Assembly (NCBI RefSeq): GCF_030463535.1
Contig: NC_132897.1
Location: 6,044,321 to 6,108,320, forward strand
DNA from: Salminus brasiliensis
Lineage: Eukaryota; Chordata; Actinopteri; Characiformes; Bryconidae
DNA length: 64,000 nt
Direction: 5' to 3'
Made by a program: the position numbers and the translations under genes. Under the pieces are notes generated by a model that was given only the letters and a program-made list of their open reading frames with translations, was not told the DNA's origin and made no database searches. Positions within the stretch are counted from its first letter, which is position 1, and each line of letters opens with the position of its first letter. Positions 16,347 to 19,300 of the stretch are shown here, piece after piece.

Positions 16347-19300
16347 CTATATGTCGGAGCTCATCTCGGCACACTGTTTATCTGATATGTGTGATGCCAG
16401 AGACTCTATGATGTCCAACAGCAGCGGCTGGCTTAGTGATCGCAGGTTGGGGAGCTTGGACACCTTTGGGGAAGGAGAGCAAAACAAATAAACAAACAGT
16501 AAACAAAACAATACAAGCCAAACAGGAGAGCTAAGCAACCAACAGACATGTAAGCAATCAAACAGATCCATAAATAAATAAATAAATAAAATAAAATAAA
16601 ATAAAATAAAATAAAATAAAATAATAAAAAGAAGAAGAATCTGGACTATGGCACTTTTGCATTGGTGGCAGTTTCATGCTCCATGCAAACACTTGTACGA
16701 TATACAGCTGCATGTACCACATACGTTCAAGCACAAAGAACAGCATTTCTCTCCATGTTGATCACAGTGCCTGCCTTCAAGTATGTTAATGTCACTGATA
16801 TTCAAAGCTGACCTCTGACAATCTGAATTCTTTAAAGGATTAGGCATCTGCTTCTGCTAATCAGATTAATAACTGCATTGATTAGAACCGATGGTGGTGA
16901 CCAGACGCGTTAGCCGGGGCCAGGTAGCCAGCACACCCTCAGAGCAGCGGTCAGCAACACACCCACCTTGATAAACTGGTGCACTATAATATGGAGGCAG
17001 TGCTTCTTCATGTCTAGAGCCTGAGTCTTATCAGCTGCCTCCAGTATCTGAAAACAAGACGGAGGACACACACAAGTGAAAAAGACAATCACAGCAGCAT
17101 TATGCAAGAAGAAGTATAAAAGATGTACGTGCATGTGTTTAACCAGCACCACTGATCCACTAATATTTATTTATTTGTTTATTTATTTTTAGCAGATGCA
17201 AGTTATTATATTTACATTTATTTGAAGTTTGTGAGCAACCCATACCTGCAAGACATTCTCCACAGTGACGTTCATCTCCAGGTTCTGCTTGCAGTAGGCC
17301 TGCAGTCTGTTGTTGGAGAAGCCATAATAATATGGAGCTGCAAACAGGTACCTGTCCTTGGGTTAAGGACTAAACTAATAAGCACCTTTATAAAGACTGA
17401 CAGAGAAGGATGAGAGTACTAACCACAAGTACTAACCACTACAAATATTTCTATACTGAACATATTCAAACATTAAGACCATCAACCATCATTAAACTCA
17501 TTTATATACACCTCCTACATTATTTAGGCTAGCTAATGTAACTTTATGGCAGGGGTGTCCAATCGTATCTGAAAAGGGCAACTGTGTCTACAGGGTTTCA
17601 TGCGTCTACAGAGCTCCCAAAAATTATAATCATGCAAGTTCCCACTTACCCGAATAGTCACTGACTAGTCACAAGGCTATGCATACACTGTATACAGTAG
17701 ATAATAATGACAATCACGAATTTTCCATCATTTGGAAGGATACAGGGAGTCCTCTGGAGGCATATTGACGTCTCCATAATAAATATAGCGCAGCATGGAC
17801 TCGAAGGCCTGTTTGCTGGGCACCATTTCTCCTATGGAGATGTTCACCTGTCCATCTTCAGGCATGAATGAGCGAAACATTGCCTCAAAATAGCTGTCAA
17901 AAGATACAACCAATTACGACAACTGATAAACCATTACTGTTAAAAAAAAAAAAAAACACCCTGGACCAGAAGATATACTGTAGTACTCAAAGCTTTGTCT
18001 TTTTCTAGAATTCTGTCTTACGTCAAATGCAAAATAGTGACAGTGTCTGATACGGCTCCTTAATTTGTCTCTTCTGCATAGTGTGTTATACCTGGAACGA
18101 GCGGCCAGTATGGCTTTATGAGCTGGTCGAGGATGTCCGTCCAGCAACAGGATGATATCACAGAATTCTCGCCCTGCCCCTTCTAGATAAGCCTTCATGT
18201 CTTGCACTAGAGATGTGCCTGAAAAGCAAATCAGAAAAAATAGGTCATAGGCATGTTTACAGGATGGTGTTTAGGTCTGAAAATAGGTGCAGGGGTGTGC
18301 TCGTACGCTCGTACCTATATCCACTGGCTGGTCAGAATACACTCTGGGAGGCGGCTGCTGTTTTCTTCTTACTATTTCTACGATGAGAGGAGTGGAAAGG
18401 TGCTCAAACTCCTTGGTCATAATCACCTGGTTAAAGTGGGTTTCCTTTACCACAAAGTTAAGGCAATGCTCCTGCAGAGACAAATACAGATACATAGGAA
18501 TGACAAAGGGAGTGTGAATGTATGGTTATTATGGATTTGTTGTCTACTCTATTAGGAAGGAAGCATCGGTACCCTCACTGTCTACTCTAATTCAGTTTAC
18601 TTAACTTTGCCTTCTTTCTTACCTTGAGCTGGTCCAGCTGAAGCTTATTTGCATTCTCACACACACTGAGCACATTTTGCAGGTCGACTGAGGCTTCGAT
18701 GTACTGCACACACAGCTGCTCCAGCCGGGAAAGCTTGAAACTCAGAGCAAGTTTATACACGTCCATAATCAACAGGACGTCCTGAACGTGACCTATTGGA
18801 TAGTAGGAAAGAGATAATTTAGTGGTGCAATGTGTTTATTGAACCATTCAGTGAACGCAGGACTAGTGGCAATAGTTAATATACACAGAATACACAAGTG
18901 ACTGAAGAAACCATTCAAGATCAGAACAATCTCAGCTCTTTCTACTGTGAGACCCCATGTGACCTAGAGCAGTGGCGACGAGATTCTCTGACCCTAAACC
19001 TGAAGTACTCTGAGAATTTTGTTATATTTAATGTGAAAACATGCCTTTACTCATGTGGACGCATTGTTTTGGTGCTTGAAATGGATTAACCAGAGTCTCA
19101 GCTTCACAAAACCAGTGGAATGTATGAATATTATAGTATATAAACAACAAGACAAATTTCTGAGTGTCTATTGGACAGTTTAACACAAAACTGGGGGATT
19201 TACGAATCCAGCAATAACAGATGAAAGGCAGACTATGGACACACAAATCCACCAATTAGACACGAGGAAAGGCAGAGACAGGTATCTTGACCCTTTCTCA

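Follow-up and report, generated by a model that had tools for sequence, protein, structure and literature searches.

Does the lztr1 gene of the fish Salminus brasiliensis carry a minor-spliceosome (U12-type) intron, is that intron the counterpart of the one in human LZTR1, and could the major spliceosome act on it as well? In human LZTR1, the U12 spliceosome normally removes intron 18 (PMC12652346). The splicing of this minor intron after loss of ZRSR2 is summarised in PMC8171363, which also covers a mutation in its branch region in a Noonan family. In zebrafish, lztr1 was reported in 2022 to have a conserved U12 intron that shows differential retention in zrsr2 mutants (p < 0.0001; PMC9501576). 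We analyzed a stretch of 64,000 nt of contig NC_132897.1 (the window), in which lztr1 lies on the minus strand; all coordinates are window positions.

We built a model of lztr1 from the sequence. The coding region (16347..25646, minus strand) comprises 20 coding exons with a total length of 2344 nt, and it encodes 778 aa if translation starts at the chosen ATG; another in-frame ATG, 7 codons farther upstream, could also serve as the start. All 19 introns of the coding model, from 25646 to 16347, are of the GT-AG type. The Kelch, BTB, and BACK families were found in the predicted protein, the Kelch region of which was matched to an LZTR1 chain in the PDB (9mey; E = 1.2e-219). Compared to that chain, the fish protein is one residue (Pro) short after GRL, at the start of exon 6 (~22104-22096, minus strand). 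Intron 1 contains an apparent duplication of a few hundred bases, as judged by eye (~25130-24520, minus strand). A 100-aa query was used to look for a second copy or a spliced retrocopy of lztr1; 7 candidates were scored, and no such copy was found, the 3 matches being the lztr1 locus itself.

We then examined intron 17 (17352..17743, minus strand; 392 nt, phase 2), which in the gene model separates exon 17 (17744..17893, minus strand; 150 nt) from exon 18 (17246..17351, minus strand; 106 nt). Its boundaries follow from the reading frame and not from the U12 motif: exon 17 ends in CCT and exon 18 starts with GTACCTG, which yields D-S-L-Y-L-F-A, with Leu678 encoded by CT|G and followed by Tyr. 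The 5' splice site GTATCCTTCC (17734..17743, minus strand) agrees with RTATCCTT at 8/8 positions; at position +9, it has a C where the published consensus has a U. The branch site TCCTTAAC (17362..17369, minus strand) agrees at 8/8 positions with the consensus UCCUUAAC and places the branch A at 17363, with 11 nt between this A and exon 18. According to section 5 of PMC8199999, which gives the donor and branch consensus, the branch spacing of U12 introns is 10 to 20 nt and is best at 11 to 13 nt. The acceptor GGACAG| (17352..17357, minus strand) was assigned from the gene model and the acceptor scores. The 18 remaining lztr1 introns all fall short of this agreement, with 3 to 5 mismatches at the donor and 1 to 4 at the branch site, against none at either in intron 17; intron 5 has the next best branch motif (1 mismatch).

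Scores separated the two classes of intron in the same way. With U2 matrices built from the 18 other lztr1 introns (a small sample), the donor and acceptor of intron 17 scored -2.8 and -0.4, respectively, versus 3.3 to 10.8 and 2.1 to 10.1 for the other 18. The U12/U2 log ratio of the donor, in which the U12 side is an approximation based on the consensus and not a published matrix, was +11.5 for intron 17, the only positive value among the 19 introns, and lay between -4.4 and -17.3 in all others. For the lack of a pyrimidine tract expected of U12 introns, the picture is mixed: pyrimidines occupy 8/17 of the positions from -20 to -4 in intron 17 and 10 to 15/17 in the other 18 introns, but the longest pyrimidine run does not distinguish intron 17 from these. 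A first-pass annotation of this DNA had described the donor and the branch site as near-perfect U12 signals and every other lztr1 junction as U2-type, and it had proposed a comparison of U12 and U2 scores as a check. Both descriptions agree with our results, down to the exact coordinates: the two motifs are complete and correctly spaced, all 18 other introns score U2-like, and the comparison, with its consensus-approximated U12 side, favors U12 at the donor, both ends scoring below all 18 U2 sites.

We considered whether intron 17 might be a conventional U2 intron, with ends that look like U12 signals only by coincidence. Its termini are GT-AG, and its longest pyrimidine run by the acceptor (5) is inside the range of the other 18 introns (4 to 12), as would suit a U2 intron. 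Several donor octamers are also expected by chance in 64 kb; the octamer alone is indeed unremarkable in the window, with 3 matches versus 4.42 expected, and a loose scan for donor plus branch motifs returned 33 pairs (10 on the plus strand and 23 on the minus strand). The weight therefore lies in the presence of both motifs at an intron fixed by the reading frame. A first-order model based on the other lztr1 introns puts the chance of this set of signals at ~1.2e-7 per intron and 2.3e-6 for 19 introns. This joint chance of ~2e-6 for the gene speaks against an ordinary U2 intron, as do the U2 scores, lower at both ends than those of all 18 real lztr1 U2 sites, and the published U12 type of the human orthologous intron (PMC12652346). 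We thus consider a chance resemblance extremely improbable. A pattern written post hoc from the intron 17 site occurred once in the window and in 0/100 shuffles. One of the 33 loose pairs, at 35366, was examined closely as a candidate second U12 intron and was rejected, as inspection by eye placed its donor octamer within a pole intron, away from the junction. In the scan, the octamers at 35366 and 53516 each pair only with a branch motif that has one mismatch.

To which human intron does intron 17 correspond? We compared it with human intron 18 through the published class and variant names of the latter. The human variant c.2220-17C>A is described as p.Tyr741Hisfs*89 (PMC9288044), which places a human junction between c.2219 and c.2220, in phase 2 and before Tyr741; the junction of fish intron 17 is also in phase 2 and precedes Tyr679. 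Further human junctions can be read from the variants c.1943-256 (intron 16), c.2070-2, c.2220-17, c.2325+ (printed as c.2325+G>A and taken here as +1), c.2407-2, and c.1149+1 in PMC10851011 and from exon 16, given as r.1786_1942del in PMC9267136. Subtraction of 186 from the last bases 1942, 2069, 2219, 2325, and 2406 gives fish junctions 15 to 19, and 1785 minus 186 gives junction 14 (checked by hand). Hence, 6/7 of the human junctions readable from these published variants share one constant offset of 186 nt with the fish junctions, from which we identify lztr1 intron 17 with human intron 18. In addition, the split Leu is followed by 100 residues in the fish protein and by 840 minus 740 in the human one, and position -17 of intron 17 (17368) is a C inside TCCTTAAC, as in human c.2220-17C.

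The seventh human junction, c.1149+1, does not fit the 186-nt offset, and we infer that it marks the end of an exon that is present in human and missing in this fish. Human LZTR1 has 21 exons and 840 aa (PMC12644159), versus 20 coding exons here, so the suggestion of the first-pass annotation that one human Kelch-region exon is absent fits the counts, and its assignment of intron 17 to the position of human intron 18 agrees with the same phase, a Tyr next in both, and the shared offset. Fish intron 9, at the presumed site of the human extra exon, contains 16 open AG..GT candidates. The PDB LZTR1 chain, which may represent an isoform or a trimmed construct, is likewise continuous from SDSE to LPSGR at this site, and the absence of the exon is therefore deduced from the exon counts and from the misfit of c.1149. 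Overall, fish intron 17 shares with human intron 18 the junction (c.2219/2220), the phase, the published U12 class, and the C at -17, and the two genes differ by the one additional human exon.

From the motifs, the scores, and the position, intron 17 is almost certainly the minor (U12-type, GT-AG) intron of lztr1 and the ortholog of human LZTR1 intron 18. The conservation of the U12 class from fish to human at a Ras regulator, which had been proposed on first reading, is correct yet not new, because the human and zebrafish introns are already in print (PMC12652346, PMC9501576). Intron 17 is the expected ortholog, in another fish, of this reported minor intron; the zebrafish intron, compared here by its description, is its published conserved counterpart. 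A test for retention of the intron in RNA from fish with impaired zrsr2 function, which had been suggested as well, has in effect been done in zebrafish, with retention as the outcome (PMC9501576). A disease-relevant minor intron of a Ras regulator has thus kept its place and its class from fish to human, and fish are therefore fair models for it.

U11, U6atac, U12, and ZRSR2 have established roles in the minor spliceosome. Given the frame, the motifs, and the orthology reported above, published human and zebrafish work leads us to expect the following pairings, ZRSR2 dependence, and decay. The donor GTATCCTT would be read by U11 and then by U6atac, U12 would pair with TCCTTAAC and leave the branch A unpaired, and the nearby acceptor would be recognized with the help of ZRSR2, after which exons 17 and 18 would be joined within the Leu codon. 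If intron 17 is retained, the message reads CTG TAT CCT TCC AAA TGA, i.e., L-Y-P-S-K-stop, the in-frame TGA (17728..17730, minus strand) corresponding to nucleotides 14 to 16 of the intron. As this early stop has two junctions downstream, the message is predicted to be lost by nonsense-mediated decay; failed splicing would thereby lead to message loss and to weaker control of the Ras family. In ZRSR2-sensitive introns, the branch point is close to the acceptor and consensus-like and the pyrimidine tract is weak (PMC8171363), and the U12 introns retained in zebrafish have a median length of 451 bp (PMC9501576). Intron 17, with its 392 nt, fits much of this published profile. We also searched the genome for the U12 snRNA. 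The Rfam search scored 44/48180 candidates and detected 0/14 controls, and it is therefore uninformative. An exact 20-mer from U12 had no match in the genome, an exact-match result that is no proof of the absence of U12.

Intron 17 and its surroundings also contain U2-like sites. A donor CGG|GTAAGT (17644..17652, minus strand) scores 9.3 (9.284) and would start a U2 intron at 17649, i.e., at intron position +95. An acceptor GTACCTGTTTGCAG| (17338..17351, minus strand) scores 8.3 and lies in exon 18, 14 nt past the U12 acceptor and 25 nt from the branch A. Hence, according to lztr1's own U2 matrices, a complete additional set of U2 sites exists at the same place, which, together with transcripts from both spliceosomes, would make intron 17 a U2/U12 twintron. 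The first-pass annotation was right on the U12 intron and overlooked both of these sites. Removal of 17649..17338 by the major spliceosome, possibly with use of the same branch A as the U12 route, would keep 94 nt of the intron, drop 14 nt of exon 18, and lead to a stop at residue 683 (L-Y-P-S-K-stop). This is the stop met upon retention, and any U2 use would therefore lower the output of lztr1.

The exon 18 acceptor has a precedent in human genetics. At 14 nt into human exon 19, after c.2233, the variant c.2232G>A (p.Ala744=) creates a U2 acceptor. This acceptor is spliced to a cryptic donor at c.2219+61 and, according to the authors, completes a twintron (PMC12652346). Aberrant splicing averaged 18% in 22/29 heterozygotes and 2% in the other 7/29, in which a common polymorphism that weakens the cryptic donor is homozygous (PMC12652346). 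The equivalent codon in this fish is GCA, which puts GTACCTGTTTGCAG| exactly 14 nt into exon 18. Thus, the twintron-completing acceptor exists in human LZTR1 only as the variant c.2232G>A, whereas this fish has the same base natively.

Does the major spliceosome also remove 17649..17338 to any measurable extent, in addition to the U12 splicing of intron 17? The two sites score within the ranges of the 18 real lztr1 U2 sites (donors, 3.3 to 10.8; acceptors, 2.1 to 10.1), and the position and the base of the acceptor are those produced by human c.2232G>A (PMC12652346). An internal donor as strong is absent from the 18 other lztr1 introns, but ~8% of random introns of the same length would contain one by chance. 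Similarly, in a comparison of the first 50 nt of exons 2 to 20 (19 exons), exon 18 was the only one with such an acceptor, but when the exon start is recoded synonymously, ~28% of the versions contain one this good, and lztr1 encodes Ala most often with GCA (19/50). The joint chance is ~2%, for two sites that were both chosen after looking. Acceptor-like sites this strong number 3 within the 2344-nt coding sequence, and other acceptor-like sites are found in exon 17 (two, scoring 8.1 and 7.5) and in the intron (17569, 8.6). Sites this strong are frequent across the window as well (donors, 35 on the minus strand and 27 on the plus strand; acceptors, 68 and 59, respectively). Moreover, the fish donor (+95) does not coincide with the human cryptic donor position (c.2219+61), and the proposal draws on the sequence of this one fish. 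We therefore think measurable U2 use unlikely. Marginally less probable, in our estimation, is the fuller proposal that intron 17 would be a native, working shifted twintron in which competition between the spliceosomes, with the U2 product ending at the shared stop codon, sets the level of the Ras regulator; human c.2232G>A, by which the U2 spliceosome gains access to human intron 18, would then recreate the normal base of this fish.

Vertebrate U2/U12 twintrons are listed for 18 human genes in Table 1 of PMC3564746, and LZTR1 is not among these. They resemble fish intron 17 in combining two sets of sites at a single place, and one third of them are shifted, as the fish sites are; they differ in being known as alternative splice forms, whereas U2 use in fish lztr1 is only predicted. 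The part of the literature that we searched made no mention of a twintron in fish lztr1, which may still be in print elsewhere. Whatever the extent of U2 use, a base that as a human variant brings about a "spliceosome switch" is the normal one in lztr1 of this fish, in a gene with a strong intronic U2 donor, which makes the locus a natural setting in which to see how a U12 intron resists competition from the major spliceosome. The intronic U2-like acceptor GTTGCCCTTTTCAG| (17569-17582, minus strand; score 8.6) follows the GTAAGT donor at a distance of ~80 nt, and from the sequence it is conceivable that the two would delimit a small nested U2 intron.

Finally, we looked at RNA structure, repeats, and neighboring genes. 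A hairpin can be drawn at the branch site (17352-17369, minus strand), with TCCTT/AAGGA pairing and an AACCC loop that contains the branch A; this local fold is not special (z = -1.36; 18/200 shuffles as good), and neither is that of the whole of intron 17 (z = +0.81; 81/100 shuffles as good). The only repeats within intron 17 are short and in two copies, and a search of the window with Rfam gave 0 matches at the gathering score. In a search of collections of genome contigs and viral contigs for other fish sequence, which gave 40 and 5 pattern stretches, respectively, none was confirmed. A single-exon gene of the claudin family is located at 8562-9224 on the minus strand (PF00822, E = 9.2e-14). 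On the other side of lztr1 and, by eye, head-to-head with it, pole, which encodes the catalytic subunit of DNA polymerase epsilon, extends from ~28600 rightwards on the plus strand; its exon ending near 35207 matches residues 492 to 562 of PDB POLE chains.
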